Source of the DNA: Lutibacter sp.
GTDB taxonomy: Bacteria > Bacteroidota > Bacteroidia > Flavobacteriales > Flavobacteriaceae
NCBI RefSeq assembly: GCF_016342705.1
Contig: NZ_JAEINV010000001.1
Location: 248,001-312,000 of the forward strand
Direction of reading: 5' to 3'
DNA length: 64,000 nucleotides
Shown here: piece after piece, positions 4,593-22,305 of the stretch
Layout: each line of letters begins with the position of its first letter
Position numbering within the stretch: position 1 is the stretch's first letter
Made by a program: the position numbers and the translations under genes
Notes under the pieces: generated by a model
Told to the model about the DNA's origin: nothing
The model's input: only the letters and a program-made list of their open reading frames with translations
The model's database searches: none

Positions 4593-5870
4593 ATGGTAAA
4601 AATGATAAAATATTTTTTAGGTCTATCAATCCTAATTTTTTTTGTAGGATGCGGACAAACGGTTAAAAAAATGGAAAACGCGGAAAAAGTGGAAAAAACA
4701 GCAGCGAATATTTTAGGAAACCCTGAGTATTTAGCAATTTCTTACGGAGGTTATCGCGGAAAAACGCGTGATACAGTTCCTACAATTCAACAAATTAAAG
4801 AAGATTTGAAAATTTTAGCAGTGATGAATGTTAAAATAGTTAGGACATATAATGTTCATTTAGAAGAGGCTTCAAACTTGTTAAAGGCAATTTCAGAACT
4901 AAAAAAAGAGGATGAAACTTTTGAAATGTATGTGATGTTAGGTGCTTGGATCGATTGTAAAAATGCTTGGACAGAGTTAGAGCCAGATCACAATTTAGAA
5001 AGTGAAAGAAATGCTGTTGAAATTGAAACTGCCGCAGCATTAGCTAAAAAGTATGCAGATATTGTAAAAATTATAGCAGTTGGAAATGAAGCTATGGTGC
5101 GTTGGGCAGCAAGTTATTATGTGCAGCCATCTGTAATTTTAAAATGGGTAAATCACTTGCAAGAATTAAAAAAGAAAGGAGAACTTTCTGCTGATTTATG
5201 GATCACCAGCTCTGATGATTTTGCATCATGGGGAGGAGGAGATCCTAGCTATCGAACAAAAGATTTAGAAGAACTAATTAAAGCGGTAGACTATGTTTCA
5301 ATGCATACCTACCCAATGCATAATACGTATTACAATCCACAATTTTGGGAAGTTCCAGATACTGAAAAAGATTTTACTGAAACTGAAAAAGTGGATGCCG
5401 CTATGTTACGCGCATTGGATTTTGCTAAAAAACAATACCAGGATGTTTCAAGCTATGTAAAAAGTATAGATTCAACTAAAACAATTCATATAGGTGAATC
5501 TGGTTGGACAACAATCTCAGATGGGCATTATGGTAAAAAAAGTTCTAGGGCTGCGGATGAATACAAAGCTGGGTCTTATTATAAAATGATGCGTGAATGG
5601 ACGAACAAAGAAAAAATTTCATTATTCTATTTTGAAGCTTTTGATGAACAATGGAAAGATGCTAAAAATCCAATTGGTTCAGAAAATCATTTTGGTTTAA
5701 TCAATTTAAAAGGACAAGCAAAGTATGCAATTTGGGATTTGGTGGATGTGGGTCTTTTTAATGGTTTAACACGCGATGGAATGTCAATTGAAAAAACCTA
5801 TAATGGAGATAAGGACGCTCTATTAAAAGAGGTGTTGGCTCCTCCATTAGCTAATGAAATTAAAAAATAA
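4593..5870 (+). CDS. GH17 family lipoprotein (endo-beta-1,3-glucanase or glucanosyltransferase)
   Basis: A 425-aa lipoprotein: basic start, hydrophobic stretch and lipobox 'FFVGC' (Cys20) send it to the cell envelope. The mature part is a GH17 TIM barrel with the acid/base motif 'AVGNEAMVR' (Glu166), the nucleophile motif 'HIGESGWTT' (Glu302), 'VSMHTYPMHN' and the closing strand 'LFYFEAFDEQWK', all hallmarks of GH17. GH17 enzymes hydrolyse or transglycosylate beta-1,3-glucan. It follows the GH149 gene closely and precedes the symporter gene, so it probably trims glucan oligosaccharides in the periplasm before import. It is the only GH17 of the three here with an export signal. Confidence 0.88.
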   Translation: MVKMIKYFLGLSILIFFVGCGQTVKKMENAEKVEKTAANILGNPEYLAISYGGYRGKTRDTVPTIQQIKEDLKILAVMNVKIVRTYNVHLEEASNLLKAISELKKEDETFEMYVMLGAWIDCKNAWTELEPDHNLESERNAVEIETAAALAKKYADIVKIIAVGNEAMVRWAASYYVQPSVILKWVNHLQELKKKGELSADLWITSSDDFASWGGGDPSYRTKDLEELIKAVDYVSMHTYPMHNTYYNPQFWEVPDTEKDFTETEKVDAAMLRALDFAKKQYQDVSSYVKSIDSTKTIHIGESGWTTISDGHYGKKSSRAADEYKAGSYYKMMREWTNKEKISLFYFEAFDEQWKDAKNPIGSENHFGLINLKGQAKYAIWDLVDVGLFNGLTRDGMSIEKTYNGDKDALLKEVLAPPLANEIKK

Positions 5871-5947: not shown

Positions 5948-7405
5948 ATGACACATCACAAAACAGCGCCTAGGGATATTGTTCCTTTTGGTCAGAAATT
6001 AGCATTTGGATCAGGCCATTTGGCTAATCAGTTATTTCCTGCAGCTCTAGGTGTTTTTATGGTTGTATTAGTGATGTCTTTAGGAATGAATCCAATTTTG
6101 GCGGGTTTATTAGGCGCATTACCTAGATTTATGGACGCGCTTACAGATCCTATAATGGGTTTTATATCAGACAATACAAAATCTAAATGGGGACGCAGAA
6201 AACCTTATATTTTGTTGGGAAGTGTAATTTCTGGAATTGCATTTATGATCATGTGGCAGTTAAATCCAGAAGACTCTGAAATGTACAATTTTTGGTATTT
6301 TTTAGTAGTATCCATATTCTTTTATATTGGGTATACAATATTTGCAACACCTTTAATTGGTTTAGGGTATGAAATGACACCTGATTATAATGAACGTACA
6401 CGTTTAATGGCTGTGTCGCAATTTATGGGGCAAATGGCTTGGGTAATTGCACCTTGGTTTTGGGTTATTATTTACGATCAAACATTATTTGAAAGTGCTC
6501 CGAAAGGAGCTAAAATAATGGCAATTTGGGTTGGAGGATTGTGTATGGTTTTAGGAATTTTACCGGCTCTTTTTAATAAAGAAATGGAAGTTGATAAAAG
6601 TAAATTAAAAAATCTTTCAAAAGGAGAGTTGGCTGCAAATACAAAAGAATTCATTAGAGGAATTGTATTAACTGTTCAAAATAAGCAGTTTATGAAATTA
6701 TGTGGAGCTACGTTCTTTATTTTCAATGGTTTTCAAACAATTGCCCAGTTTTCGTTTTTTATCATTGTTTATTATTTATTTCAAGGAGATACAGTTTTAG
6801 CAGGTTCTTGGCCAGCTTGGTTTGGAACTGCAAGTGCATTGGCTACTATGTTTTTAGTAATTCCCGTTGTTACCAAAATTTCGGAAAAAATAGGGAAACG
6901 CAAAGCTTTTGTTGTGGCAACCTTACTTTCAATTGTTGGTTATGTTTTAAAATGGTGGGGATTTGACCCTAGTAATCCGTGGTTAATGTTTATGCCTATT
7001 CCTTTTCTTTCTTTTGGAATTGGAGGTTTGTTTACCTTAATGATGTCAATGACAGCTGATGTTTGCGATTTAGATGAATTGAACAATGGAGAACGTCGTG
7101 AGGGAATGTTTGGCGCCGTTTACTGGTGGATGGTAAAATTAGGAACAGCCTTAGCAATGCTAACGAGTGGAATTGTTTTAAAAATGGTTGGTTTTGATGA
7201 AAGTATTTCTGTTCAAGCTCATGATACGCTTATTAATTTACGTTTGGCAGATATTATAATTCCAATAATTGCAGCTCTTATTGCCATTCTGTTAATCTGG
7301 CGATACAATATAACAGAGGACAGAGCGAATGAAATTAAAGAAGCATTAGTTAAGCGCCGCGCTGAAATTAAGCTAGAAGAGAATAGAAATAAACAAAAGT
7401 ATTAA
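5948..7405 (+). CDS. MFS sugar:cation symporter (GPH/MelB-like family)
   Basis: A 485-aa polytopic membrane protein with about 12 hydrophobic segments. The loop 'DALTDPIMGFISDNTKSKWGRRKPY' region (Asp-rich helix 2 followed by the SKWGRRKP loop) is the signature of glycoside-pentoside-hexuronide:cation symporters such as MelB. The C-terminus is charged and cytoplasmic. It sits between the GH17 lipoprotein and a GH3 beta-glucosidase gene, so it is the likely inner-membrane importer for beta-1,3-gluco-oligosaccharides or glucose released in the periplasm, feeding the cytosolic phosphorylase and GH17 enzymes. Substrate is inferred from context only. A candidate operator precedes it. Confidence 0.88.
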   Translation: MTHHKTAPRDIVPFGQKLAFGSGHLANQLFPAALGVFMVVLVMSLGMNPILAGLLGALPRFMDALTDPIMGFISDNTKSKWGRRKPYILLGSVISGIAFMIMWQLNPEDSEMYNFWYFLVVSIFFYIGYTIFATPLIGLGYEMTPDYNERTRLMAVSQFMGQMAWVIAPWFWVIIYDQTLFESAPKGAKIMAIWVGGLCMVLGILPALFNKEMEVDKSKLKNLSKGELAANTKEFIRGIVLTVQNKQFMKLCGATFFIFNGFQTIAQFSFFIIVYYLFQGDTVLAGSWPAWFGTASALATMFLVIPVVTKISEKIGKRKAFVVATLLSIVGYVLKWWGFDPSNPWLMFMPIPFLSFGIGGLFTLMMSMTADVCDLDELNNGERREGMFGAVYWWMVKLGTALAMLTSGIVLKMVGFDESISVQAHDTLINLRLADIIIPIIAALIAILLIWRYNITEDRANEIKEALVKRRAEIKLEENRNKQKY

Positions 7406-7496: not shown

Positions 7497-9854
7497 ATGA
7501 AAAAAGTTTTATTAATAGCATTCCTAGTTTTAATTACTATGAATTTAAAAGCTCAAACTCCAGAAGAAAATAAGCTTCAAAATAAAATTACTCAACTTAT
7601 TTCTCAATTAACTATTGAAGAGAAAGTGGCACTTTGTTCCGGTAGAGATGATTGGAGTACAATGCCTATTGAACGATTAGATATTCCTTGGATTTGGCTA
7701 TCTGATGGACCTCACGGTTTGCGTCGTGCCCCAGAAACAAACAAGGCAGGTTATGGAGATCAATTGCCAGCAACTTGTTTTCCAACTGCATCTGCACTTG
7801 CCGCTAGTTGGGACTTAGATTTAATTTATAAAGTGGGACAAACATTAGGTGAAGAAAGTCAAGCTTTAGGTGTAAATGTTTTATTAGGTCCTGGAGTAAA
7901 TATAAAAAGATCTGTTTTAGGTGGAAGAAATTTTGAATACTTTTCCGAAGATCCAATTTTATCAGGAGAAATGGGAGCAGCTTTTATTAATGGTGTTCAA
8001 AGTAAAGGTGTTGGAACTTCTCTAAAGCATTTTGCAGCAAATAATGTTGAAACTATGCGTATGTATAATAGTTCCAATATGGACAATAGAACTTTAAATG
8101 AACTTTATTTAACACCGTTTGAAATTGCTGTAAAAAAAGCACAACCTTGGACAGTTATGGCATGTTATAACAGAGTGCAAGGAGTATACGGAACTCAAAA
8201 TCCATATTTATTAATTGAAAAGCTAAAAAATGAATGGGGTTTTAAAGGAATTGTAGTTTCAGATTGGTTTGCAGTTATAAATAGGGTTGAGGCAATGAAA
8301 GCTGGAATGCATATAGAAATGCCAAAAGTAAGTGGTGTTAATAATGCTATTGCGGTTGAAGCTGTTAACAATGGTAGTTTAAACATTGAAGTTGTTGATA
8401 ATCTTGTCAGAGAAATTTTAACCGTGGTTTTTAAAGCAAAATCATTGGAAGATAGAACTACAAAATTGAATATTGAAAAAGACCATGCATTTGCAAGAAA
8501 AGTAGCTTCTGAAGTTGCTACTTTATTAAAAAATGACGGTCAGGTTTTACCAATTAATAATCAAAAATATAAGAAAGTCGCTATTATTGGAGAATTTGCT
8601 ATGAACCCACGTTACCAAGGTAATGGTAGTTCACAAGTGAAGCCAACTAAACTTGATAACGTATTAGATATTATTAAGCAAGAATATGGAAAGGATATTG
8701 AAATTAGCTATGCTCAAGGTTACAACTTAGCTGATGATAATGATATGTCTTTAATTGAACAAGCGAAGGAAGTAGCATCAAAAGCAGATGTAGTTTTAAT
8801 ATTTGCAGGGTTACCTTTACAATATGAATCCGAAGGAATTGATAGAACTCATATCAATATGCCTCCATCTCACAATACATTAATCAACGAAATTTCAGCA
8901 GTTCAGAAAAATACAGTTGTAGTTCTTACAAATGGAAGTGCAGTTACCATGCCTTGGATTAACAATGTTTCGTCTGTTTTAGAAACTTGGTTAGGCGGTC
9001 AAGCTGGAGCAGGAGGAATTGCAGATGTGTTATTTGGTAAAGTAAATCCTTCAGGAAAATTGGCGGAAACTTTCCCAATGCAATTAGAAGATACGCCAGC
9101 ATTTTTTAACTTTCCAGGCGAACAAGGAGATGTGTTATATGGAGAACGATTTTTTGTGGGATATCGTTATTATGATGAAAAGAAAATTGAACCTTTATTT
9201 CCATTTGGATTTGGATTGTCTTACACCAATTTTGAATACAGTAATCTAAAATTGTCATCAAAAAACACCACAGATAAAGAAGGACTGACAGCTAGTTTAA
9301 CTATAAAAAATACTGGAAAAGTAAAAGGAAAAGAAATAGTACAATTGTATGTTTCTGACAAAGAAAGCACATTGCAAAGGCCAGAAAAAGAGTTAAAGAA
9401 ATTTGTAAAGGTAGAATTAAATCCTGGAGAAGAAAAAACCGTTACTTTTAAATTGGAGAGCAGAGATTTTTCTTATTTTGATGGTAAAAGAAATATGTGG
9501 ATTGCAGAAAGCGGTGAGTACGTTATTTCTGCAGCAGCTTCTTCAAGAGATATTAGAGTATCTGAAACTATCAATTTACAATCAACCCAAGTTGTTCCAT
9601 TAGCTTTTGATGAATATACATTTTTTCTTGAATATTGGAATAATAAACAAACGCGAGAAATTGTATTAGAATACATGCCAAATTGGATAAGAGGAATTGT
9701 AACAGAAGGTGATGAGGCTGAAATAAGGGAATATCAAGGTTTTATGGTAGAACATCCATTAATTAAATATCCTTATATAACAAGTGGCGAAATTACTCAT
9801 GAACAAGTAATGGAAATAGTTGAAAAGTGTAAAAACTTAACATATACACCATAA
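7497..9854 (+). CDS. GH3 family beta-glucosidase, exported
   Basis: A 785-aa enzyme with a signal peptide ending near 'NLKAQT', so periplasmic. The order is a GH3 N-terminal barrel with 'LSDGPHG', 'GRNFEYFSEDP' and the KH motif 'SLKHFAANN', nucleophile 'VVSDWFAV' (Asp256), then the GH3 C-terminal alpha/beta domain from about 340, then a fibronectin-III-like domain around 600-680. GH3 enzymes release glucose from the non-reducing end of beta-glucans. After the FnIII-like domain there is an extra tail of roughly 95 residues without an obvious match. It lies between the symporter and a clan GH-A lipoprotein gene; hydrolysis of laminarin-derived oligosaccharides is the inferred role. Confidence 0.9.
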   Translation: MKKVLLIAFLVLITMNLKAQTPEENKLQNKITQLISQLTIEEKVALCSGRDDWSTMPIERLDIPWIWLSDGPHGLRRAPETNKAGYGDQLPATCFPTASALAASWDLDLIYKVGQTLGEESQALGVNVLLGPGVNIKRSVLGGRNFEYFSEDPILSGEMGAAFINGVQSKGVGTSLKHFAANNVETMRMYNSSNMDNRTLNELYLTPFEIAVKKAQPWTVMACYNRVQGVYGTQNPYLLIEKLKNEWGFKGIVVSDWFAVINRVEAMKAGMHIEMPKVSGVNNAIAVEAVNNGSLNIEVVDNLVREILTVVFKAKSLEDRTTKLNIEKDHAFARKVASEVATLLKNDGQVLPINNQKYKKVAIIGEFAMNPRYQGNGSSQVKPTKLDNVLDIIKQEYGKDIEISYAQGYNLADDNDMSLIEQAKEVASKADVVLIFAGLPLQYESEGIDRTHINMPPSHNTLINEISAVQKNTVVVLTNGSAVTMPWINNVSSVLETWLGGQAGAGGIADVLFGKVNPSGKLAETFPMQLEDTPAFFNFPGEQGDVLYGERFFVGYRYYDEKKIEPLFPFGFGLSYTNFEYSNLKLSSKNTTDKEGLTASLTIKNTGKVKGKEIVQLYVSDKESTLQRPEKELKKFVKVELNPGEEKTVTFKLESRDFSYFDGKRNMWIAESGEYVISAAASSRDIRVSETINLQSTQVVPLAFDEYTFFLEYWNNKQTREIVLEYMPNWIRGIVTEGDEAEIREYQGFMVEHPLIKYPYITSGEITHEQVMEIVEKCKNLTYTP

Positions 9855-9911: not shown

Positions 9912-10943
9912 ATGATTAATAAATTTAAAATAACAATTATTATCAGTTTTATTGTGATGTTTAATTGTACACTTGTTTCTTGTCAAGATAAAAACATTGT
10001 TGATTTAGTGAAAGTTTCAGGCCAAAAAATACTATTAAACAATAAAAATTATCAAATAAAGGGAGTTTGCTATAATCCAGTTTCAAAAGGAAGTAATGAC
10101 CGAAGCTTTGAGAATTTAACGCAAGATTTAGCTTTAATGGTTGAAGCAGGTATAAATACTATACGCGTGTATTCACCAATTGATGATATAGCTGTTTTAA
10201 ATGAAATAGACAAAGCAGGTTTAAAGTTAATAGTTGGCTTTGGATACAATCAAAATGGCAATTATGATATTCTTTCTGGATCATTTATTAAGTATGTTAA
10301 TAAGTATAAAAACCATAATTCCATTCTTTTTTGGGAATTAGGAAACGAATACAATTATCACCCAGAATGGTTTAATAATGATATTAAAAATTGGTATTCA
10401 GCAATGAATAATGCTGCAAAATTAATTCATCAGAATGATATAAATCATCCTGTAGCAACTGCACATGGAGAACTTCCTGATTCATTAGCACTTGAATTAA
10501 GTCCTAATATTGATGTATGGGGATTAAATGTATATCGATGGGACAATCCTAAAAGTATTTTTAATCAATGGAAAAATCTAAGTAACAAACCAATGTATTT
10601 GTCTGAAGCTGGAGCAGATAGTTATATGACAATTTCAAAAGATGGTTACGAACAAGGAGTCAATGAGAAAGCACAGGCTGATGCAACAAGAAATATTTTA
10701 AGCAGTGTTTTCAAAAATCAAAACACTTGTTCAGGAGTTGCATTATTTGCTTTTAATGATGAATTATGGAAGGCTGGAAATAATGACCAATATGATGCCG
10801 GTGGCTGGGCGCCAAATAGTAGCGGGGTTCCTTATGACGGTACACCAAATGAAGAATATTGGGGAATTGTAGATATTGATAGAAATAAAAAAGAAGCTTT
10901 TTTTATTGTAAAAGAAAAATATCTTCAAGATATTGAAAAATAA
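9912..10943 (+). CDS. Clan GH-A glycoside hydrolase lipoprotein (family uncertain)
   Basis: A 343-aa lipoprotein (lipobox 'TLVSC', Cys24). The body is a compact TIM barrel without accessory domains: 'INTIRVYSPIDD' (strand 2), acid/base strand 'ILFWELGNEYNY' (Glu146), 'VWGLNVYRWD' and nucleophile strand 'PMYLSEAGADSY' (Glu232). These two glutamates place it in clan GH-A with retaining chemistry. The nucleophile context resembles GH2 and GH72-like glucanosyltransferase barrels, and it lacks the GH2 N-terminal sandwich domains. Within the beta-1,3-glucan cluster an exo-glucanase or transglycosylase role is plausible. The exact family is not recognised with certainty. Confidence 0.7.
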   Translation: MINKFKITIIISFIVMFNCTLVSCQDKNIVDLVKVSGQKILLNNKNYQIKGVCYNPVSKGSNDRSFENLTQDLALMVEAGINTIRVYSPIDDIAVLNEIDKAGLKLIVGFGYNQNGNYDILSGSFIKYVNKYKNHNSILFWELGNEYNYHPEWFNNDIKNWYSAMNNAAKLIHQNDINHPVATAHGELPDSLALELSPNIDVWGLNVYRWDNPKSIFNQWKNLSNKPMYLSEAGADSYMTISKDGYEQGVNEKAQADATRNILSSVFKNQNTCSGVALFAFNDELWKAGNNDQYDAGGWAPNSSGVPYDGTPNEEYWGIVDIDRNKKEAFFIVKEKYLQDIEK

Positions 10944-10982: not shown

Positions 10983-11867
10983 ATGTCAATTAGAACAGAA
11001 AAAATATTATCCTTGGCTGGTATAAACCACGATAATAAATCTAAAGAAGAGCTTCAAGAATTATTTTCAAAGGCTTTAAACAATGGAATGCACGGATTAT
11101 GTTTTAGTCCTTATGAAGAAGGTCAAAAGCCTGGTGATATTATTACAGAAGAACAAGTTAGAAGAAGAATGGAAATTATTAAGCCATATACAAAATGGGT
11201 ACGTTCTTTTTCTTGTACAGATGGTAATGAATTAATTCCAAAAATTGCACATGAGTATGGTATTAAAACAATGGTTGGTGCTTGGTTAGGAGATAATGAT
11301 GAAACTAATAAAAAAGAAATAGCCAACCTTATTAAAATTGCTAAAGAAGGCCATGTAGATATTGCTGCAGTGGGTAATGAAGTAATGTATAGAGGTGATT
11401 TAACAGAAGAAGAATTGTTGACTTTTTTAAATGAAGTTAAAAAAGAGATTCCAAATATTCCTGTGGGATATGTTGATGCTTATTATGAGTTTGAGAAACG
11501 TCCAAAAATTACAGAAGCTTGCGATATAATTCTTGCCAATTGCTACCCGTATTGGGAAGGTTGTAGGTTAGAGTATTCCTTATTATATATGAAAGATATG
11601 TACAGAAGAGCCTTACAAGCTGGAAAAGGGAAACAGGTAATTATTTCTGAAACTGGATGGACTAATAAAGGGCAGGTTTTTTATGGAGCAGTTCCATCAT
11701 TTGAAAATGCTATGAAATATTTTATAAATGCACAACAATGGTCAGAAGCAGAAGATATTAAATTATTCTATTTCTCGTCATTTGATGAATCATGGAAAAC
11801 AGGAGCTGAAGGTGATGTTGGTGCTTATTGGGGAATTTGGGATAAAGATGAAAAACTTAAATATTAA
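10983..11867 (+). CDS. Cytosolic GH17 family enzyme (short form)
   Basis: A 294-aa protein with no signal peptide or lipobox ('MSIRTEKILSLAG'), so cytosolic. The GH17 signatures are complete: 'AAVGNEVMYR' (acid/base Glu133), 'IISETGWTN' (nucleophile Glu223) and 'LFYFSSFDESWK' near the C-terminus. It is a single minimal barrel. It is followed after 37 bp by another unexported GH17 gene. Two cytosolic GH17 enzymes with a cytosolic GH149 phosphorylase imply that sizeable beta-1,3-gluco-oligosaccharides enter the cell. Hydrolysis is the default call; transglycosylation is also known in the family. Confidence 0.85.
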   Translation: MSIRTEKILSLAGINHDNKSKEELQELFSKALNNGMHGLCFSPYEEGQKPGDIITEEQVRRRMEIIKPYTKWVRSFSCTDGNELIPKIAHEYGIKTMVGAWLGDNDETNKKEIANLIKIAKEGHVDIAAVGNEVMYRGDLTEEELLTFLNEVKKEIPNIPVGYVDAYYEFEKRPKITEACDIILANCYPYWEGCRLEYSLLYMKDMYRRALQAGKGKQVIISETGWTNKGQVFYGAVPSFENAMKYFINAQQWSEAEDIKLFYFSSFDESWKTGAEGDVGAYWGIWDKDEKLKY

Positions 11868-11904: not shown

Positions 11905-12843
11905 ATGGATTACACAAAAGAATTAAACATATTAAAAGGAAAAGCAGTTTGTTATTCAGGATTCAGAAATGGTCAAAGTCCAGATTTGGGTGTTTTTCCA
12001 AGTTATGATGAGGTAAAGGAAGATTTGTACATTATAAAAGATCACTGGAATTATATAAGAATGTACGATTGTGATATGCATGCTGAAATGGTATTGCAAA
12101 TTATAAGAAAAGAAAAGCTGCCTATTAAGGTACTGTTGGGAGCCTATATTCATGCTGAAAAAAATAATTTTGGTTGTCCGTGGGGAGGTGTATATCCTGA
12201 AGAAACGCTTGAGAAGAATAAAAAAATTAACTTAATTCAAATAAAAAAGTTAATTTCTTGGGCAAATGAGTATTACGATGTAGTATTTGCATTATCAGCC
12301 GGTAATGAGGCTACAGTAGATTGGTCTGGGAATTTTGTGCCAGTGAATCAGGTTATTGAATATGTAAAAATGATAAAAGAAGGCGCACAGCAACCTGTAA
12401 CTTTTTGTGAAAATTATGCTCCTTGGGCTAATAAATTAGAACCATTGATTAAAGAACTTGATTTTATATCCATTCATACATACCCAGTTTGGGAGTATAA
12501 AAATATTCATGAGGCAATTGAATATACTAAAGAAAATTATAATTCAATTGCAAATAAATATCTAGATAAATTAGTAGTGATTACTGAGGCTGGTTGGGCA
12601 ACAAACTCAAATGGAAGAGGTATTAACCCTAGTAATGTAAGTGAAGAACACCAAGAAATTTATTACAAAGATTTGGTAAATTGGAGTGATGAAGCAGGAG
12701 TTCTAACTTTTGTATTTGAAGCTTTTGATGAACCTTGGAAAGGCTCAGATGAGCCACTTGAACCAGAAAAACATTGGGGATTATTTACAGTAAATCGTAC
12801 TCCAAAATTAGCTATGAAAGAGCATTTTTCAGAATTAAAATAA
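11905..12843 (+). CDS. Cytosolic GH17 family enzyme (second copy)
   Basis: A 312-aa protein without an export signal. GH17 motifs: 'LSAGNEATVDW' (acid/base Glu135), 'ISIHTYPVWEYKN', 'VVITEAGWAT' (nucleophile Glu228) and 'FVFEAFDEPWKG'. It is clearly divergent from the preceding 294-aa GH17 and closer in its C-terminal strand to the GH17 lipoprotein at 4.6 kb, so the three probably have different chain-length or branch preferences. The insertion 'NNFGCPWGGVYPEE' around residues 87-100 is specific to this copy. Role inferred: intracellular processing of beta-1,3-glucan oligosaccharides. Confidence 0.85.
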   Translation: MDYTKELNILKGKAVCYSGFRNGQSPDLGVFPSYDEVKEDLYIIKDHWNYIRMYDCDMHAEMVLQIIRKEKLPIKVLLGAYIHAEKNNFGCPWGGVYPEETLEKNKKINLIQIKKLISWANEYYDVVFALSAGNEATVDWSGNFVPVNQVIEYVKMIKEGAQQPVTFCENYAPWANKLEPLIKELDFISIHTYPVWEYKNIHEAIEYTKENYNSIANKYLDKLVVITEAGWATNSNGRGINPSNVSEEHQEIYYKDLVNWSDEAGVLTFVFEAFDEPWKGSDEPLEPEKHWGLFTVNRTPKLAMKEHFSELK

Positions 12844-12958: not shown

Positions 12959-14356
12959 ATGAAAAAAATAGTTGAATTAGTTTTAATTTTTATTTTATTA
13001 ATATCGTGTAAAGAACAAAGTAAAAAGATGGAGGTGTTTAATCGTAACCTATTATCAGATAGTTCTTTAGTTTATAAATATTACAAACCTAAGTTTAGTG
13101 ATATAAAAATTTCACGGGTAAATTATAAGGAAAAGTTATATGGTTTTTGGCTAGGTCAATGTATTGCGAATTGGACAGGTTTAGTGACCGAAATGGACAA
13201 AATTGGTGATATTGGAGCTGTTAAAACGGGTAATTTTTATACTAGAAATGATTGGGGTAAACCAGATCAGCCTAGTATATGGGGAGAAGGACTTCCGAGC
13301 AATTTATCACCAGTCATTGATTTTGTATTTGCAAAAGAGGATAGTATTTGGGGTGCAGATGATGATACGGACATTGAGTTTATGTATCAACATTTATTAT
13401 ATGCCAATAAAACATCAATTTTAACTGGAGAGCAAATAAGAGATGGCTGGTTAAAATACATAAAAAAGGAAGAAGAAAATTATTTATGGGTAGCAAATCA
13501 AAAAGCGTTGGACTTGATGGTAAAAGGTTTCGTTCCTCCTGATACAAGTGATCCAAAATTCACTTCAGATAGTATATACGATAATTATTATGAAATGATT
13601 GATGCGCAGCTAACCACAGAAATATTTGGTTTTTTTGCACCTTCACGGCCTGATATAGCTTTAAAAATGGCTAAGCTACCTATTAATGCAACAGCTCGTG
13701 AAAATGCCGCTTGGGCTTCTGAATTCTATGTAACAATGTATTCTTTAGCCTCGTCAGTGGATGAAAATTCAAAAATGAAAGAGAAAATTAACTGGATGGC
13801 AAATGAGGCGCGTAAAAGATTACCAAACCATTCATATACTGCAAAAATGTTTGATTTTGTGAAAGAAAAATATGATGCTAATATACCTTGGGAGGAAACA
13901 AGGGATGGACTTTATAAAAGGTATCAATTAGAACAAGGTGATGGATATAATTTAACTTCAAAAAAAATGTATTGTAATGGTTGTTTTGCTTCAGGAATAA
14001 ATTTTGGATCAAGTATTATTAGCCTGTTGTATGGTGAAGGTGATTTTAAAGAAACAATAAAAATTGGAGTATTAACAGGTTGGGATTCAGATAATCCAAC
14101 AGCAACTTGGGGTGGATTGTTAGGGTTTATGATTGGAAAAGAAGGAATTGAAAAAGCTTTTAATAGAAAATTTTCGGATAAATTTAATATTCATAGAACT
14201 AGAAGAAATTTCCCCAATAACGGATTGTTTACTTTTAATGAAATGGCCGAAAAAGGAATTTATATTATTGATAGAGTTGTTCAAGAAGAGATGAAAGGTG
14301 GTGTAGATTTAAATAAAGGGGATTGGTACATTCCAATAAATAAGATTGAATATTAA
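12959..14356 (+). CDS. ADP-ribosylglycohydrolase (DraG/ARH)-fold lipoprotein
   Basis: A 465-aa lipoprotein (lipobox 'LLISC', Cys17). The mature part shows the dinuclear-metal motifs of the ADP-ribosylglycohydrolase fold: 'WGADDDTDIEF' (Asp134-136) in the first half and 'LTGWDSDNPTATWGGLLG' (Asp376, Asp378) in the second, with an N-terminal helix block 'YGFWLGQCIANWTG' in place of the usual GDALG segment. Classical members remove ADP-ribose from proteins in the cytosol. Here the protein is exported, anchored and embedded between GH17 and GH128 glucanase genes, so a carbohydrate-related hydrolytic role is more likely than ADP-ribose metabolism. The true substrate is unknown. Confidence 0.78.
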   Translation: MKKIVELVLIFILLISCKEQSKKMEVFNRNLLSDSSLVYKYYKPKFSDIKISRVNYKEKLYGFWLGQCIANWTGLVTEMDKIGDIGAVKTGNFYTRNDWGKPDQPSIWGEGLPSNLSPVIDFVFAKEDSIWGADDDTDIEFMYQHLLYANKTSILTGEQIRDGWLKYIKKEEENYLWVANQKALDLMVKGFVPPDTSDPKFTSDSIYDNYYEMIDAQLTTEIFGFFAPSRPDIALKMAKLPINATARENAAWASEFYVTMYSLASSVDENSKMKEKINWMANEARKRLPNHSYTAKMFDFVKEKYDANIPWEETRDGLYKRYQLEQGDGYNLTSKKMYCNGCFASGINFGSSIISLLYGEGDFKETIKIGVLTGWDSDNPTATWGGLLGFMIGKEGIEKAFNRKFSDKFNIHRTRRNFPNNGLFTFNEMAEKGIYIIDRVVQEEMKGGVDLNKGDWYIPINKIEY

Positions 14357-14378: not shown

Positions 14379-16304
14379 ATGAGTAATAAAAAGGTACTAT
14401 ACGCAATAGTTTTATTGTTCATATGTTCACAAAATTATGCTCAAAATAAAAGTTATAAAAGAGGTGTAGCCTATGGATATCATTCTGTAAATGATATGCA
14501 AAAAGTTTCTGAAAATATTTCTTGGTGGTACAATTGGGGAGCACAACCAGATAATGCAATTAGATCAACATATCAAAACTACAATGTAGATTTCACTCCA
14601 ATGGCTTGGAATGGGACTGGAATTTCAGCTGTGAATAATTGGGTAAATCAAGATTCTAAGGTGAAATATATTTTAGGATTTAATGAGCCAAACTTTAAAG
14701 ACCAGGCAAATATGACTCCCTCACAAGCAGCTACTGCTTGGCCTGCGTTTCAATCAATTGCTAAAAGTCATAATTTAAAAACTGTTGGACCCGCAGTGAA
14801 TTATTGTGGAAATTGTGTTTCTGAAAACGGCACAACGTATACGAATGCTTTTAAATATTTAGATGATTTTTTTGCTGCATGTACAGATTGTGAAGTGGAT
14901 TATATAGCATTGCATTGGTATGGTAGTGGAAATTCCATAGTTGGTTATATTAATGATGCCAGAAAATACAATAAACCAATTTGGGTGACAGAATTTGCAT
15001 CGTGGGATTATTCAAACCCAGTGCAAAGTGTCGAGGAACAAAAAAAATATTTGGCAGGAACTGTTAATTTTTTAGAAAGAGATCCTGATGTATATAGATA
15101 TTCATGGTTTATTGGAAGAACGAATGCTGGCGCAACCTCCTATCCATATATTGATTTGTATGGTTCCGATGGAAAATTAACTGAATTAGGAGAAATATAT
15201 ATGAAAATACCAGTGTATGATCCTAATTATAAATTTCAAATTCCAGGTAAAATTGAGGCAGAAGAATATAATTTAATGTCTGGGTTATTTGCTGAAATAA
15301 CTGAAGATACTGATGGTTTTTTAAACTTAGGATGGACAGAAAATAATGATTGGGCAACCTATAAAATAAATGTTGCAACAACAGGCACGTATACTATTTC
15401 TGCAAGAGTAGCTGGTTCAGATACTGGAGTAATTGATTTTTTAGTGGACAATCAATTGAAAGTAGCTTTAAATACTCCAAATACTGGTGGTTGGCAAAAA
15501 TGGGAAACGGTATCATCAACAATTGATTTAATAGTGGGAGAACATGTACTAAAAATGTTGGTGAAAGATGCAGGTTTTAATATTAATTGGATTTCAATCT
15601 CAAATAATAATGCACCTTCAACTAGTTTTGATATAAAAACAGTAGGTGAAACGTGTCCAAATAAAAAAAACGGACAAATTGTTGTTTCAGCCAAAGAGCA
15701 AGGTGTTTATAAAGCTAAACTAAACGGAGTAACATCAACATTTGCACTTACGAAAGTTTATAATAATTTAGCGTCAGGAAGCTATAATTTATGTGTTTCA
15801 GTTGTGGGTGAATCTTCCGAGCAATGTTATACTTTTGAAATTTTAGAAGGAAAAAATGTTTCTGGAAAAGCTTCAATAATAAATTCTAAAACTGTTGAAA
15901 TAACCTTAGATAACGGAACACCACCTTTTTCCATTTTGGTTAATAATCAGCAAGCATTTGAAACATTAGCATCACAATTTAATGTAACCATTAAGCAAGG
16001 AGATGTTGTAGAGGTTAAAACGGCCAAACCTTGTGAAGGCGTTGTGACAAAAAAAATAGATTTTTTTAATGAAATAGAAGCATACCCAAATCCTACAAGT
16101 GGAATTTTTGAAATTACCTTACCCTTAATTCAAGATGAAGTGCAAATTGCAATTTATAACATGCAATCAAGCTTAATTTCTAATCGTAATTATACTAGTA
16201 TTAATGGTAAGGTAAAAATTTCTTTAGAAGAAAACCCTTCAGGAATTTACATGGCAAAAATAGGTGAAGGAAATTCTAAAACTTTAAAGATTATTAAAAT
16301 TTAA
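14379..16304 (+). CDS. Secreted GH128 endo-beta-1,3-glucanase with CBM6 and T9SS sorting domain
   Basis: A 641-aa protein with signal peptide ('ICSQNYAQ'). Residues about 25-280 form a GH128 barrel: 'KRGVAYGYHS', 'YILGFNEPNF' (acid/base Glu103), 'IALHWYG' and 'PIWVTEFASWD' (nucleophile Glu205). GH128 enzymes are endo-beta-1,3-glucanases. Residues about 288-415 are a CBM6-like module ('GKIEAEEYN', 'NLGWTENNDWATYKINV'). The last ~75 residues ('AYPNPTSGIFEITLP' to 'KTLKIIKI') are a type A type IX secretion C-terminal domain, so it is exported to the surface or released. It is the clearest extracellular polymer-cleaving enzyme here and fixes beta-1,3-glucan as the target. Confidence 0.9.
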   Translation: MSNKKVLYAIVLLFICSQNYAQNKSYKRGVAYGYHSVNDMQKVSENISWWYNWGAQPDNAIRSTYQNYNVDFTPMAWNGTGISAVNNWVNQDSKVKYILGFNEPNFKDQANMTPSQAATAWPAFQSIAKSHNLKTVGPAVNYCGNCVSENGTTYTNAFKYLDDFFAACTDCEVDYIALHWYGSGNSIVGYINDARKYNKPIWVTEFASWDYSNPVQSVEEQKKYLAGTVNFLERDPDVYRYSWFIGRTNAGATSYPYIDLYGSDGKLTELGEIYMKIPVYDPNYKFQIPGKIEAEEYNLMSGLFAEITEDTDGFLNLGWTENNDWATYKINVATTGTYTISARVAGSDTGVIDFLVDNQLKVALNTPNTGGWQKWETVSSTIDLIVGEHVLKMLVKDAGFNINWISISNNNAPSTSFDIKTVGETCPNKKNGQIVVSAKEQGVYKAKLNGVTSTFALTKVYNNLASGSYNLCVSVVGESSEQCYTFEILEGKNVSGKASIINSKTVEITLDNGTPPFSILVNNQQAFETLASQFNVTIKQGDVVEVKTAKPCEGVVTKKIDFFNEIEAYPNPTSGIFEITLPLIQDEVQIAIYNMQSSLISNRNYTSINGKVKISLEENPSGIYMAKIGEGNSKTLKIIKI

Positions 16305-16315
16305 ATAAATAAAAA

Positions 16316-17140
16316 ATGAAACGTATTATAGTAATTTTAGTAATTAGTTTATGGAATTTAACAGTTTTTAGCCAGCAAACAGCATATGAACTAGAACAAA
16401 ATATTCATTATTACAGTGATTCTATAAATCAATCAGATGCGTATATAAATGAGCGTTGTGTGTTGGATGTCTATTATCCAAAAAACAGCAAAAATTTTGC
16501 AACCATTGTTTGGATTCATGGTGGAGGTTTAACAAGTTTTCAAAAAGAAATTCCTGAAGAATTAAAAAATAAAGGAGTTGCTATTATTGGTATAAATTAT
16601 AGGTTGTATCCAAAAGTAAAAGCCCCGGCATATATTGAAGATACTGCTGCTGCAGTAGCTTGGACTTTTAAGAACATTCAAAAATATGGGGGAAATAATC
16701 AATTAATTTTTGTTTCTGGGCATTCAGCAGGGGGTTACTTGGCAAGCATGGTTGGATTGGATAAAAAATGGTTAGCTGTTCATAATATTGATGCGAATGC
16801 TATAGCAGGATTAATCCCTTTTAGTGGTCATGCAATTACACATTTTACAGTTCGCGAAGAACGTGGAATTGCAGGAACTCAGCCAATTATTGATGATTTA
16901 GCTCCGTTGTATTATGTGCGTGCAGATGCACCGCCATTACTTTTAATAACTGGAGATCGTGAGTTAGAATTGTTGGGTAGATATGAAGAAAATGCATATT
17001 TAATGCGAATGATGAAAATTGTTGGTCATACCAAAACAGTTCTTTATGAATTAGAAGGATACGGACATAATATGACGCAACCAGCATTTCCGTTGTTGTT
17101 AAATGAAGTTGAAAGAATTAGTAAAGAAAAAAATAATTAA
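16316..17140 (+). CDS. Alpha/beta-hydrolase esterase (HSL/BD-FAE-like), exported
   Basis: A 274-aa protein with a signal peptide ('LTVFSQQ'). It carries the oxyanion motif 'WIHGGGL', the nucleophile elbow 'VSGHSAGGYL' (Ser137), an acid candidate Asp214 in 'LLLITGDREL' and His251 in 'YGHNMTQ', giving a complete catalytic triad. The HGG plus GHSAGG combination is that of hormone-sensitive-lipase-like carboxylesterases often found in polysaccharide loci. Located 11 bp after the GH128 gene and 2 bp before the GH5 gene, it is surely co-transcribed. It may remove acyl or other ester groups from a decorated glucan; the substrate is not deducible. Confidence 0.82.
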   Translation: MKRIIVILVISLWNLTVFSQQTAYELEQNIHYYSDSINQSDAYINERCVLDVYYPKNSKNFATIVWIHGGGLTSFQKEIPEELKNKGVAIIGINYRLYPKVKAPAYIEDTAAAVAWTFKNIQKYGGNNQLIFVSGHSAGGYLASMVGLDKKWLAVHNIDANAIAGLIPFSGHAITHFTVREERGIAGTQPIIDDLAPLYYVRADAPPLLLITGDRELELLGRYEENAYLMRMMKIVGHTKTVLYELEGYGHNMTQPAFPLLLNEVERISKEKNN

Positions 17141-17142
17141 AA

Positions 17143-18408
17143 ATGAAACACTATTTAATAACACTTGCTGCAATCTTATTAATTACAATAAGTTATTCGT
17201 GCAAGGAAAAAACAGCTAAAACTCTTGAAGAAAAATCAACAAATACACTCAGTTTTATAAAAACCAATGGAACAAAATTAGTTGATGGTCAAGGAACTGA
17301 AATTATTTTAAAAGGAACTAATTTGGGAAACTGGTTAGTACCTGAAGGATATATGTTTAAAATGGAACAGGTAAATGCTCCTCGTAAAATAGATGAACTG
17401 TTATATGAATTAGTGGGTCCTGATAGCTTGCAAGTTTTTTGGAATGGTTTTTTAAAAAACTACATTACTCATGATGATATAAGGTATTTAAAAAGTATTG
17501 GTGTTAATCATATCCGTTTACCTTTTCATTATAAAATGTTTACAGACGATTTGTATATGGGTCAAAGAAACGCTGGTTTTAAATATGTTGATAAATTAAT
17601 AGATTGGTGCAGAGAAGAACAATTGTATGTTTTATTAGATATGCATTGTGCTCCAGGTGGACAAACTGGTGATAATATAGATGATAGTTATGGCTATCCT
17701 TATTTGTTTAAAAGTAAGTCATCACAAGATTTAATGACTAAGATTTGGGTAGATATAGCAAAAAAATACAAAGATGAACCCGTAATAATTGGCTACGATA
17801 TAGTAAACGAGCCTATTGCACATTATTTTAATGATGAATTAGATCAGTTGAATCATCAATTATATTTGTTGTACAACCGTATTATTAAAGAAGTTCGTGA
17901 GGTTGATAAAGAACATATGATTTTTTTAAACGGCTCCAATTGGAGTGGCAATTTTGATGTTTTTGAAGAACTAGTTGATGATAATGTAGTGTACGAATTT
18001 CATAAATATTGGTTTGATGTAAATCAGGAAGCTATACAATCGTATATAGATTTCAGTGAAAAACATAAAGTCCCAATTTACATTGGTGAAACTGGTGAAA
18101 ATACTGATGAATGGGTAAATGATTTTAGAATATTGTTAGATAAAAACGCCGTTAATTGGTGTTTTTGGCCTTATAAAAAAATGAATAATCCACGTGGAAT
18201 TATGAACTTTAATGAGCCAGAGGACTATCATTTAATTACTGAATATGCTAAAAGTGATCGTTCAACTTATGCAAAAGTGAGAGAAAATAGACCAGATATT
18301 TTAAAAGTTCAAAAAGCATTAAATCAATATTTAGAAAACAGTTTGTATAAAAATAACTTTGTAAACAAAGGCTATACAAAAGCCTTAAACTTTAAAATAG
18401 AAGAATAA
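17143..18408 (+). CDS. GH5 family glucanase lipoprotein
   Basis: A 421-aa lipoprotein (lipobox 'ISYSC', Cys20). The barrel has typical GH5 features: 'LKGTNLGNWLVPEG', 'VNHIRLPFHY', 'LYVLLDMHCAPGGQ', acid/base strand 'GYDIVNEPIA' (Glu223) and nucleophile strand 'PIYIGETGEN' (Glu316). The NLGNWL...G start resembles fungal exo-beta-1,3-glucanase-type GH5 enzymes. It follows the esterase gene by 2 bp and precedes a GH3 lipoprotein gene. In this locus an exo-beta-1,3- or beta-1,6-glucanase role, for example on laminarin side branches, is a reasonable inference. The subfamily is not assigned. Confidence 0.85.
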   Translation: MKHYLITLAAILLITISYSCKEKTAKTLEEKSTNTLSFIKTNGTKLVDGQGTEIILKGTNLGNWLVPEGYMFKMEQVNAPRKIDELLYELVGPDSLQVFWNGFLKNYITHDDIRYLKSIGVNHIRLPFHYKMFTDDLYMGQRNAGFKYVDKLIDWCREEQLYVLLDMHCAPGGQTGDNIDDSYGYPYLFKSKSSQDLMTKIWVDIAKKYKDEPVIIGYDIVNEPIAHYFNDELDQLNHQLYLLYNRIIKEVREVDKEHMIFLNGSNWSGNFDVFEELVDDNVVYEFHKYWFDVNQEAIQSYIDFSEKHKVPIYIGETGENTDEWVNDFRILLDKNAVNWCFWPYKKMNNPRGIMNFNEPEDYHLITEYAKSDRSTYAKVRENRPDILKVQKALNQYLENSLYKNNFVNKGYTKALNFKIEE

Positions 18409-18434: not shown

Positions 18435-20735
18435 ATGAGTAAAATACATCAAATAATTTTAATAGCCATGGTTGTTATGAGTTGTTCCAAAAATGAAAAG
18501 CAAGTTAATTTGGATTTTAAAGTAAGCGATTTGCAAACGGAAGAGACTGAAGCTAAAATACAAGAATTAGTTGCTAAAATGACCTTAAAAGAAAAAGCAG
18601 GTCAAATGTTAAATATTGGGTTGCCTGCAGTTTTAAAAGGTGAATATTGGGACGCAAGAGACAGTGTTAATTTTGATGGGAAAAAATTCAAAAAATTTAT
18701 TGTTGATTATGCTGTTGGCTCTATACACAACACACCACAATATCCTGCAACTAGAGAAGAGTGGTTTAAAATTGTTAAAGAAATTCAAGATTCAGCAATG
18801 CAAAAAACCCGTTTAGGAATACCTGTATTGTACGGAATTGATAATATTCACGGTGCTAATTATGTAAATGGTTCTGTAATATTTCCGCATCAAATTGCAG
18901 TTGCAGCAACTTGGAATAAGGAACTTTCAAGGCTTGGAGGTGAAATTACTTCTTATGAATCCAGAGCAGCGTCACTACCATGGAATTTTAATCCAAATGC
19001 CGATGTTGCTATGAACCCACTTTGGGGAAGAATTGCAGAAAGTTTTGGAGAAGATCCGTATTTAATTTCTGAAATGACCAACGCCTATATGCAAGGTTCC
19101 CAAGAAAAAGGATTACAAAACCCAACAAGCACAGCTGTTTGTTTAAAGCATTTTGTTGGTTATGGAGTTGGAAGAAATGGAAAAGACCGAGCAAATGCAA
19201 TAATCCCAGAAAATAGTTTACGTCAATATTTTTTACCTCCTTTTGAAAAAGCAATTGAAAATGGTGCTATGGGAATTATGATTAGCTCTAATGCTGTAAA
19301 CGGAATTCCTTGCCATTTAAACAAGTATTATATTACGGATATTTTAAAAGGCGAATTAAAGTTTAAAGGAGTTGTTATTTCAGATTTTAGTGATGTGGAA
19401 TTTTTAGTTGCCGCTCATGAATCAGCAAAAGATATGCGTGAAGCTACCAAATTTGCCGTAAATGCTGGAATTGATCTATTAATGAATCCGTATGATGCTG
19501 ATGTAGTTGATATTATTGTGGATTTAGTTGAGAAAGGTGAAATTTCAAAAGAAAGAATTAATGATGCTGTTACACGTGTTTTACGTTTAAAATTTTATTT
19601 AAATCTTTTTGAAAAGCCCTATAATAATCCAGGAGAATATCCAGATTTTGGAAGTGAAAAACATATTGCTGCTAATTACCAAACAGCTAGTGAAGCCATC
19701 ACTTTATTAAAAAATAAAAATGCAGTTTTACCACTTTCTTCTAATAAAAAAATACTAGTAACTGGTTACGCTTCAAATTCCATAAATAATTTAAATGGTG
19801 CTTGGTCTCGCTCTTTTTTGGGAAGAGATACTACCTATAACGATCCAAGTAAATTAACAATTCTACAGGCTATAAAAAAACAAGTGGGTGCGCAACATGT
19901 AGATTTTATTGAGGGAACTGATTATTTAGAAGATATAAATTCTGATAAAGCCGTTTTAAAAGCTAAAAATGCCGATTATATTGTGGTGTGTGTTGGAGAA
20001 ATTCCCGCATCAGAAAAACCCTCTGATATTAACGAATTAGAATTGCCAAAAGTGCAACAAGATTTAGTGAAAAAATTAGCAAAAACAGGAAAGCCAATTA
20101 TTTTAGTAATGGTACAAGGCAGACCAAGAATTATTAAGGAAATTGAACCATTGGTTGATGGAATTATTATGGCATATTTACCTGGTCAAGAAGGTGGAAG
20201 AGCGATTTCGGATATAATTTTCGGAAACATAAATCCAAGTGGTAAACTGCCATATACGTATCCAATGTATTCAGGAAACGCTGTGACATACTATCATAAA
20301 AAAACCGATATCAGAGATATAAATTGGGGTTATGATGGTTTTTATCCCCAATATGAATTTGGATTTGGACTTTCATTTACCACTTTTGAGTACAGTAATT
20401 TAAAGGTTAGTAAAGATACTTTGGTTGGAAAAGAAGATGTAAAAATTTCAATTGATGTAAAAAACACAGGGAAAAGAGAAGGTAAAGAAACGGTACAAGT
20501 GTACTTAAAAGATCTTGTAGCAACAGTTTCTCCAGATTCAAAAAAATTGGTTCGTTTTAATAAAATTCAGTTGCAACCGAATGAAACTAAAACTATTGAA
20601 TTTGTTTTAGTTACTAAAGATTTTGAAAATGTAGGTATCGAAAATAAATGGATTGTTGAGGACGGAGATTTTGAAGTGCAAATTGGTGGCAATTCAAAAG
20701 ATGTTTTAAAACAACAAGTGTATTTCAAAAATTAA
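18435..20735 (+). CDS. GH3 family beta-glucosidase lipoprotein
   Basis: A 766-aa lipoprotein (lipobox 'VVMSC', Cys17). N-terminal GH3 barrel with 'GIPVLYGIDNIHGANYV', 'ESFGEDPYL', 'CLKHFVGYG' and nucleophile 'VVISDFSDV' (Asp317); then the alpha/beta sandwich domain from about 410 and a C-terminal FnIII-like domain ('FGFGLSFTTFEYSNLKV' onward). The 'DNIHGANY' block is shared with exo-beta-1,3/1,4-glucanase type GH3 proteins. It differs from the 7.5-kb GH3 in anchoring and sequence, so the pair probably splits beta-1,3 and beta-1,6 or long and short substrates. Confidence 0.9.
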   Translation: MSKIHQIILIAMVVMSCSKNEKQVNLDFKVSDLQTEETEAKIQELVAKMTLKEKAGQMLNIGLPAVLKGEYWDARDSVNFDGKKFKKFIVDYAVGSIHNTPQYPATREEWFKIVKEIQDSAMQKTRLGIPVLYGIDNIHGANYVNGSVIFPHQIAVAATWNKELSRLGGEITSYESRAASLPWNFNPNADVAMNPLWGRIAESFGEDPYLISEMTNAYMQGSQEKGLQNPTSTAVCLKHFVGYGVGRNGKDRANAIIPENSLRQYFLPPFEKAIENGAMGIMISSNAVNGIPCHLNKYYITDILKGELKFKGVVISDFSDVEFLVAAHESAKDMREATKFAVNAGIDLLMNPYDADVVDIIVDLVEKGEISKERINDAVTRVLRLKFYLNLFEKPYNNPGEYPDFGSEKHIAANYQTASEAITLLKNKNAVLPLSSNKKILVTGYASNSINNLNGAWSRSFLGRDTTYNDPSKLTILQAIKKQVGAQHVDFIEGTDYLEDINSDKAVLKAKNADYIVVCVGEIPASEKPSDINELELPKVQQDLVKKLAKTGKPIILVMVQGRPRIIKEIEPLVDGIIMAYLPGQEGGRAISDIIFGNINPSGKLPYTYPMYSGNAVTYYHKKTDIRDINWGYDGFYPQYEFGFGLSFTTFEYSNLKVSKDTLVGKEDVKISIDVKNTGKREGKETVQVYLKDLVATVSPDSKKLVRFNKIQLQPNETKTIEFVLVTKDFENVGIENKWIVEDGDFEVQIGGNSKDVLKQQVYFKN

Positions 20736-20772: not shown

Positions 20773-22305
20773 ATGATAAATTTTAAAATTAAATTTTTAG
20801 TAAAACCATTTCAAGTACTGGTTTTATTTACAGTATTATTTTTTATATCGTGTAATGATGATAGTCCAACCGTTCAACCTATTGTTGAAGGAACCGAATT
20901 AATAGATGTTGCTTTTCTAAAAGTGAATAATCCTAGCCTTGCTAACGATATTTATTTAAACAAAGAAGGAAATACTTTTAATGGAAGAGTTTCATACAGC
21001 GCAGATATTAAAAATTTGGTGGCAACATACATTCATAATGGATTAAAAGTTGAAGTGAATAATGTGGCACAAGAAGTAGGATCTTCGATAAATGATTTTA
21101 CAAATCCAGTAACTTTTAAAGTAAAAACAACCGATGGAAGGGAACAAAGTTATAATGTTGATGTCACCTATTTTACGGGTTTACCTCTTGTTTATGTGAA
21201 TACTGTTGGAAATGTTCCAATTGATTCTAAAGATGTTGAGGTGAATGGATTTTTCGAAATAAATGGTGGGCGTAATTTTAGTCCGATGGCATCATCGGAA
21301 ATGGAAATTAGAGGAAGAGGAAATTCAACTTGGTGGTTGCACCCAAAAAAGCCATATCAAATGAAGCTGAGTGATAAAGCCGAAGTATTAGGAATGCCAA
21401 AAGATAAAAAATGGATTTTTTTAGCAGAGCATTCAGATAAAACATTGATGCGAAATAAAATTGCTTTTGAAATGGGCTATTTAAGCAAGTTAGATTGGAC
21501 GCCAAAATCTGAATATGCAGAAGTTTTTGTGAATAATCAATATTCAGGAACCTACAATATTTCACAGAAAGTTGAAGAAAGTAGCAATAGAGTAAATTTG
21601 GGTGATACTGGTTATTTATTAGAAATTGATCAGTTGGAGAGATTAGATCCTGATGATGTATATTTTAGAACAAATGATTTTTTAATAAATATAAAAGAAC
21701 CAGATTTAGAGTATAATAGTAGTGAATATAATTATGTAAAAGATTTAGTTAATGAATTTGAAACTGTTTTAAAAAGCGCAACATTTAAAGACCCTATTTC
21801 GGGGTACGCAAAATACATAGATGAAGATTGTTTTATTGATTGGTATTTAATTAGTGAAATTACTAAAAATCAAGATTCAAGAGATTTTTCAAGTATTTTT
21901 TTAAATGTTATTCCTGGTGAAAAAATAAAAATGGGGCCACTTTGGGATTTTGATTTAGCTTTTGGAAACGTAGATTATTCAGACGCTACAAACGCTTCGG
22001 GTTTTTGGGTAAAAGATCATAAATGGTTTGCACGTCTTTTTCAAGATCCAGCTTTTGTAAACAAAGTAAAGTCTCGTTTTGTTTATTTTAAAAACAATCA
22101 AAGCCTTATTTTAAATAAAATGGATTTTTATGCTAATTATTTAAAATATGCCCAAGACGAAAATGATTTAAAATGGAATGTATTAGGTAATTATGTGTGG
22201 CCAAATCCGGTAGTTTATGATACCTATCAAGAGGAAGTAAACCACTTAAAAAATTGGTACATAGAAAGAATGAATTGGTTATCAACAGCATATAATAGTC
22301 TGTAA
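20773..22305 (+). CDS. CotH-kinase-family lipoprotein
   Basis: A 510-aa lipoprotein (lipobox 'FISC' followed by NDD). Residues about 35-135 form a beta-rich N-terminal domain ('LIDVAFLKVNNPSLANDIYL', 'DGREQSYNVDVTYF'). The rest is a CotH-type kinase-like domain with 'EIRGRGNSTWWLHPKKPYQ', 'SDKTLMRNKIA', 'GTYNISQKVEES' and the metal-binding signature 'GPLWDFDLAFGN'. CotH proteins in Bacillus phosphorylate spore coat proteins with ATP; exported bacterial homologues have unknown substrates. Genes of this family are often found in Bacteroidota polysaccharide loci. In this cluster it may bind or modify glycan or partner proteins; function unproven. Confidence 0.82.
   Translation: MINFKIKFLVKPFQVLVLFTVLFFISCNDDSPTVQPIVEGTELIDVAFLKVNNPSLANDIYLNKEGNTFNGRVSYSADIKNLVATYIHNGLKVEVNNVAQEVGSSINDFTNPVTFKVKTTDGREQSYNVDVTYFTGLPLVYVNTVGNVPIDSKDVEVNGFFEINGGRNFSPMASSEMEIRGRGNSTWWLHPKKPYQMKLSDKAEVLGMPKDKKWIFLAEHSDKTLMRNKIAFEMGYLSKLDWTPKSEYAEVFVNNQYSGTYNISQKVEESSNRVNLGDTGYLLEIDQLERLDPDDVYFRTNDFLINIKEPDLEYNSSEYNYVKDLVNEFETVLKSATFKDPISGYAKYIDEDCFIDWYLISEITKNQDSRDFSSIFLNVIPGEKIKMGPLWDFDLAFGNVDYSDATNASGFWVKDHKWFARLFQDPAFVNKVKSRFVYFKNNQSLILNKMDFYANYLKYAQDENDLKWNVLGNYVWPNPVVYDTYQEEVNHLKNWYIERMNWLSTAYNSL

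Follow-up and report, generated by a model that had tools for sequence, protein, structure and literature searches.

In the window, the 64,000-nucleotide stretch of Lutibacter sp. DNA analyzed here, a gene for a lipoprotein with the ADP-ribosylglycohydrolase (ARH) fold lies within a co-directional run of genes belonging to a large beta-1,3-glucan utilization locus, which contains GH149, three GH17, GH128, GH3, GH16, GH30, and SusCD. The run consists of the following features:

1089..4553, + strand: GH149 beta-1,3-oligoglucan phosphorylase, 1154 aa (PDB 6hq6, 1688.7 bits)
4593..5870, + strand: GH17-like lipoprotein (PF00332 at 27.1 bits, just under the cut-off)
5948..7405, + strand: GPH/MFS sugar transporter (its 89% identical homologue in L033 is PF13347)
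7497..9854, + strand: probable GH3-type protein, judged from its sequence
9912..10943, + strand: GH2_C-type TIM barrel protein (PF02836, 37.8 bits)
10983..11867, + strand: GH17-like protein without a signal peptide (PF00332, 46.7 bits)
11905..12843, + strand: GH17-like protein without a signal peptide, upstream of the ARH gene (PF00332 at 29.2 bits, just over the cut-off)
12959..14356, + strand: ARH-fold lipoprotein gene (PF03747), 465 aa, ATG start
14379..16304, + strand: GH128-type core (PF11790) with CBM6 and a T9SS tail, 22 bp downstream of the ARH gene
16316..17140, + strand: secreted BD-FAE-type esterase (PF20434)
17143..18408, + strand: GH5 lipoprotein (PF00150)
18435..20735, + strand: probable GH3-type lipoprotein, likewise judged from its sequence
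20773..22305, + strand: CotH-kinase-like lipoprotein (PF08757)
22331..24166, + strand: GH2 glycosidase (PF02836/PF02837)

The locus extends leftward beyond the window, with a GH5, SusC, SusD, two binding-type lipoproteins, a GH16, two GH30, and a sugar porter. The CotH-kinase-like lipoprotein has an 83% identical copy in the glucan locus of L036 and a 62% identical one in L187. As a whole, the surrounding locus is of the known beta-1,3-glucan kind, with GH149, GH17, GH3, and GH16/GH30 (PMC5827456, PMC13188888). These two papers make no mention of an ADP-ribosylglycohydrolase, and our literature search found no published link between ADP-ribosylglycohydrolases and polysaccharide utilization or laminarin.

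The ARH-fold protein carries an export signal at its N-terminus, which reads MKKIVELVLIFILLISC-KEQ with C17 as the lipid-bearing residue:

12959..13009, + strand: type II signal peptide, residues 1–17, lipobox L-I-S-C17 (LLIS-C17), from the sequence

A strict lipobox pattern was present in 42 of the 64 main-clade homologues. PF03747 matched residues 62–399 (84.6 bits, E = 1.2e-23; cut-off 26.2 bits), covering profile positions 1–286 of 287, and a profile built from the exported members matched 11 canonical ARHs with E = 2.9e-12. NCBIfam yielded no match to the protein, and sequence and profile searches of the PDB linked it to no ARH; these were found by fold comparison alone. Gasdermin matches from the PDB searches (E = 0.33–1.1) were dropped as noise. 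AlphaFold2 (five models, 47 aligned homologues) predicted the structure with a mean pLDDT of 88.9 and a pTM of 0.89, and Foldseek placed the model in the all-alpha ARH fold, with ARH3, DraG, and other ARHs as its top PDB matches (best E = 2.5e-6, TM-scores mostly 0.6–0.7 by target length). The original prediction, which had read from the sequence an ARH fold with a lipobox at 12959–14356, between a GH17 gene (11905–12843) and a GH128-type gene (14379–16304), was thereby borne out both by the PF03747 search and by the fold part of the structure prediction that it had put forward as checks; the pocket was assessed from aligned residues alone.

In ARH3, Glu41 is needed for catalysis, and mutants of Glu41, D77, or D78 are severely reduced in activity (PMC8319183). 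D77 and D314 contact both metals and the ribose 2''-/3''-OH, D77 holding the 2-OH and D314 the 3-OH, while D78 and D316 are metal holders (PMC8141533). Each of these residues has an equivalent in the lipoprotein:

13190..13192, + strand: E78, equivalent of the catalytic/metal Glu41 of ARH3, from alignment to canonical ARHs
13358..13372, + strand: D134-D135-D136-T137-D138, equivalent of ARH3 T76-D77-D78-T, first metal site (kept in 64/64)
14084..14095, + strand: D376-S-D378-N379, equivalent of ARH3 D314-x-D316-T317, second metal site

The paired Asp motifs that had drawn attention in the sequence, GADDDTD and GWDSDN, are thus D134–D138 and D376, D378, and N379. Within the main clade, E78 was invariant where present (63/64 homologues, the remaining one being truncated), D376 and D378 were found in 64/64, and N379 in 63/64. 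The equivalents of E78, D135, D136, D376, and D378 were also kept in the more distant exported groups. With the catalytic Glu and every metal-coordinating acid invariant in 63–64 homologues, the protein very probably works as a di-metal glycosylhydrolase. Relative to ARH3, T76 has become D134, T317 has become N379, and D34 has become N71, and main-clade members carry these substitutions with few or no exceptions; with the changed Thr ligands and N71, geometry and specificity may differ from those of ARH3. Between the catalytic Glu and the first Asp cluster lie about 56 residues, against 35 in the Glu41-flap of ARH3; the conserved FYTRxDWGxPDxPSxW that this segment carries in the main clade suggests an extended, aromatic-rich lid.

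Adenosine in ARH3 is coordinated by F143, S148, and G150, and changes there severely reduce activity (PMC8319183). Canonical ARHs, including ARH3 and a second, cytosolic ARH of the window's own genome, carry GNGxAMR and T/SHxHP-type motifs, and a GNGxxMR-type loop is present in these two and in Lmo0067. This loop was found in 0/64 main-clade members, in which the profile alignment reads DAQLTTEIFGFFAP at the corresponding position, and the TH motif typical of many canonical ARHs is missing from the group as well. The second ARH, encoded on another contig (L068:9564-10409), has all the canonical ADP-ribose motifs, so the organism retains a standard ARH alongside its exported protein. Because the loop that holds adenosine is absent, ADP-ribose is an unlikely substrate of the lipoprotein; loss of the loop with retention of the acids points to a di-metal, ribosyl-cleaving engine that was kept without its ADP handle. 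Overall, the protein is like ARH1, ARH3, DraG, and Tri1 in fold, motif order, catalytic Glu, and four metal-coordinating Asp. Unlike them, it is an exported lipoprotein with DDDTD/DxDN in place of TDDT/DxDT, it lacks the GNGxxMR loop and the TH motif, its flap past the catalytic Glu is longer, and part of its clade has sugar-catabolic neighbors.

Homologues were found in 44 of 399 Flavobacteriaceae genomes and in other Bacteroidota families. In most loci the neighbors bear no relation to glucan, and most main-clade loci in the reference set have no sugar-related neighbor. We compared genes within three of the ARH gene with those four to nine away for 63 main-clade copies. Sugar permease and ribokinase each occurred 6 times near and 0 times far, nucleoside hydrolase 4 versus 0, and 3-keto-disaccharide hydrolase 5 versus 0 (four of the five from closely related, perhaps non-independent copies). 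EEP-type phosphoesterases (PF03372) were near the ARH in 7 of the 63 loci and in none at the greater distance. Glucan genes were counted 15 times near and 15 times far. In an unbiased Pfam tally, PfkB was the commonest family among direct neighbors (6/111) and fell outside the 25 commonest at distance five. The order permease, ribokinase, ARH recurs in loci from several families (L037, L041, L045, L071, L072, and L121); the ribokinase and ARH genes are 2–58 bp apart. A nucleoside hydrolase gene lies 12 bp past the ARH in L037 and L072 and is near it in L040 and L121. The kinase of these operons is ribokinase by the curated TIGR02152 (354.6 versus a cut-off of 299.65).

Further gene arrangements were observed around the homologues. 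The EEP-family gene shares the strand of the ARH and is the first, second, or third gene downstream in L033, L038, L053, L054, L071, L086, and L155. The 3-keto-disaccharide hydrolase gene (PF06439) is divergent beside the ARH gene in L077, L080, L081, and L083, and the first two and last of these also have DinB-type polymerase and DnaE-type genes downstream. A 1084-aa protein encoded at L073:8748-12002 carries two ARH-type domains in tandem and adjoins several sulfatases and a nucleoside hydrolase.

Genome-wide, ribokinase was over the cut-off in 29 and GH149 in 140 of the 399 Flavobacteriaceae genomes. Ribokinase was present in 19/44 genomes with an ARH homologue versus 10/355 without (odds ratio 26, p = 1e-13), in 14/39 versus 15/360 when counting the main clade only (p = 2e-8), and remained associated after collapsing to genera (p = 3e-6), whereas the odds ratio for GH149 was 2.5 (p = 0.004); in these p values phylogeny is handled by genus collapsing only and genome size is uncorrected. 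Where the ARH is unlinked, a permease-ribokinase(-nucleoside hydrolase) operon usually lies elsewhere in that genome, and 25 of the 44 ARH genomes in the family sample have no ribokinase. In G025, ribokinase and permease lie within a beta-glucan cluster (L187, with GH16, two GH17, CotH, and a GH94-like gene) and the ARH lies elsewhere, a second hint of combined ribose and glucan use. A connection with ribose is favored because the permease, ribokinase, and nucleoside hydrolase partners recur and because the co-occurrence with ribokinase exceeds that with GH149.

We take the Bacteroides rus locus (BT2803-2809) to include an ADP-ribosylglycohydrolase-type protein, RusGH. More distant exported ARH-type proteins, about 25–28% identical to that of the window, occur in rus-like loci (L065, L138, L140, L141, L143, and L144) that also hold ribokinase and permease genes and, in some cases, nucleoside hydrolase and SusCD; in Bacteroides thetaiotaomicron, BT2803-2809 is the ribose-utilization locus (PMC12596196, PMC12548429). 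The window's lipoprotein shares the export signal and the ARH catalytic core with the rus-type proteins. It differs from them in its motifs (DDDTDxE and DxDN versus YDDxYxD and DxDC) and in the position of its gene within a glucan locus, with no linked ribokinase or ribose-type permease, a linkage that is present in sister-clade loci. The L065 locus (L065:1-16137), from a genome of the window's genus, is of the ribose type and holds three different ARH-type genes, one with the DDDTD motif and two with the rus-type motif, alongside two PF00756 esterases, SusCD, ribokinase, and permease.

In the tree, the window's protein groups with those of L033 (Lutibacter agarilyticus), L036 (L. maritimus), L038, and L071 (fork support 89), and all members of this clade adjoin glucan genes. 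The sister clade contains four ribose-context loci (L037, L040, L041, and L072). One member of the window's clade, L071, combines glucan and ribose genes (GH3, GH5, permease, ribokinase, ARH, and EEP). The broad tree has long branches and many weak forks, and only the local placement of the window was used. With moderate supports, this placement would fit a ribose-linked enzyme that was drawn into a glucan locus. The ARH was kept in the differently arranged glucan loci of L. agarilyticus and L. maritimus. L036:9197-11326 encodes a BD-FAE-type esterase and an ARH domain fused in one 709-aa ORF; the two are separate genes in the window and in L033. Because L. maritimus fuses the ARH to the secreted esterase of the locus, the arrangement argues that the ARH has some role there. 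Two genomes of the window's genus, however, have a close GH149 (87% and 77%) and no close homologue of the ARH, so a glucan locus does not require it. In the 100% complete genome of the window, no ribokinase scored above the cut-off and no permease of the ribose-operon kind was found; a close ribokinase is likewise missing from the two Lutibacter genomes that share the arrangement. Released ribose would therefore be without an obvious route in these organisms.

Several activities could be housed in such a protein. It would be a true exported ADP-ribosyl hydrolase if it acted on proteins, nucleic acids, poly(ADP-ribose), alpha-NAD, or related dinucleotides from dead cells. Its Pfam family, fold, and catalytic residues are those of such enzymes, and the nucleoside hydrolases and EEP-type phosphoesterases beside its homologues could complete nucleotide breakdown, but the lack of the GNGxxMR loop and TH motif, set beside the severe effect of adenosine-site changes on ARH3, makes this unlikely. 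The glucan surroundings would instead suit an unrecognized glycoside hydrolase, or a de-branching or de-capping enzyme, that acts with the nearby esterase on a substituent or linkage of marine beta-1,3-glucan. The short gaps in the locus, the retention in L033 and L036, the esterase fusion, the lost adenosine loop, the lengthened E78-D134 segment with its conserved aromatics, and the lack of ribokinase in Lutibacter-type genomes all agree with this, as do a separate ARH-GH3-GH5-GH17-GH3-GH149 cluster in another family (L118) and GH3/GH94 neighbors in L074 and L086. Against it, the active site of ARHs is shaped to take a ribofuranosyl diol and not glucopyranose, the two genomes with a close GH149 lack the ARH, and glucan genes are not enriched near the ARH outside the window's clade (5/336 near versus 6/517 far, p = 0.45), so that we do not consider it a likely reading. 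The lack of enrichment beyond that clade was also the ground for discarding a general glucan enzyme as the default reading.

A compromise, on which the ARH fold serves as a secreted, ADP-unspecific glycoside hydrolase that in the window's lineage cleaves a furanosyl (ribosyl-like) substituent of the beta-glucan in tandem with the esterase, strikes us as quite unlikely; if true, it would imply a new metal-dependent glycoside hydrolase family and an undescribed glucan decoration. Finally, the gene could be a hitch-hiker of the glucan locus, left without a present role after ribose genes were lost. The window's genome indeed lacks ribokinase and permease, and ribose operons are found in the sister clade, but the reading frame is undamaged, all catalytic residues are conserved, and three species keep it in differently arranged glucan loci, one of them as a new fusion. 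We regard this as the least likely of the explanations.

The reading we prefer, with a probability of about 0.5, is that the protein is a secreted ribofuranosidase that depends on metal and serves ribose scavenging, and that became secondarily embedded in a glucan locus. It builds on the export signal, the fold, the conserved catalytic residues, the loss of the adenosine loop, and the linkage and co-occurrence with ribose genes. The enzyme would be a lipid-anchored, di-metal (Mg/Mn) ribosylhydrolase in which two metals, held by E78, D135/D136, and D376/D378, bind the 2,3-diol of a ribofuranosyl group, presumably alpha-configured. Hydrolysis of the C1 bond, in the periplasm or on the cell surface, would release ribose or free the aglycone, and the ADP part would not be needed. 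As part of the exported ribose-scavenging equipment of Bacteroidota, it may have been taken into a laminarin-type glucan locus in the window's lineage, where it would strip ribosyl groups met alongside algal glucan or cell debris. The glucan context is the exception, true of the window's clade and a few others. The original prediction had named a complete absence of homologues from carbohydrate loci as counting against it; glucan genes do lie within three genes of the ARH in L033, L036, L038, L074, L086, and L118 among the 63 loci, as in the window, with no enrichment beyond the window's clade. Its picture of an exported ARH-fold lipoprotein with an intact core, set in a beta-glucan locus and probably no ADP-ribose enzyme, holds. 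Its premise that the periplasm offers no obvious substrate does not: its nearest relatives beyond the glucan clade sit in permease-ribokinase-ARH-nucleoside hydrolase operons and distant ARH lipoproteins occur with SusCD, ribokinase, and permease, which makes exported ribosides the obvious candidate.

Proteins matching PF03747 are routinely annotated as ADP-ribosylglycohydrolases, exported ones included. Our analysis sets an exported branch apart as one that appears to have kept the ribose-holding metal engine and dropped the ADP handle, and ties it to ribose catabolism through gene order and genome-wide co-occurrence. If the ribofuranosidase reading is confirmed, many unexplained lipoproteins of marine Bacteroidota would be ribosidases and carbohydrate degradation would gain a metal-dependent glycosidase fold, raising the question of which ribosyl-containing material comes with laminarin in algal biomass.
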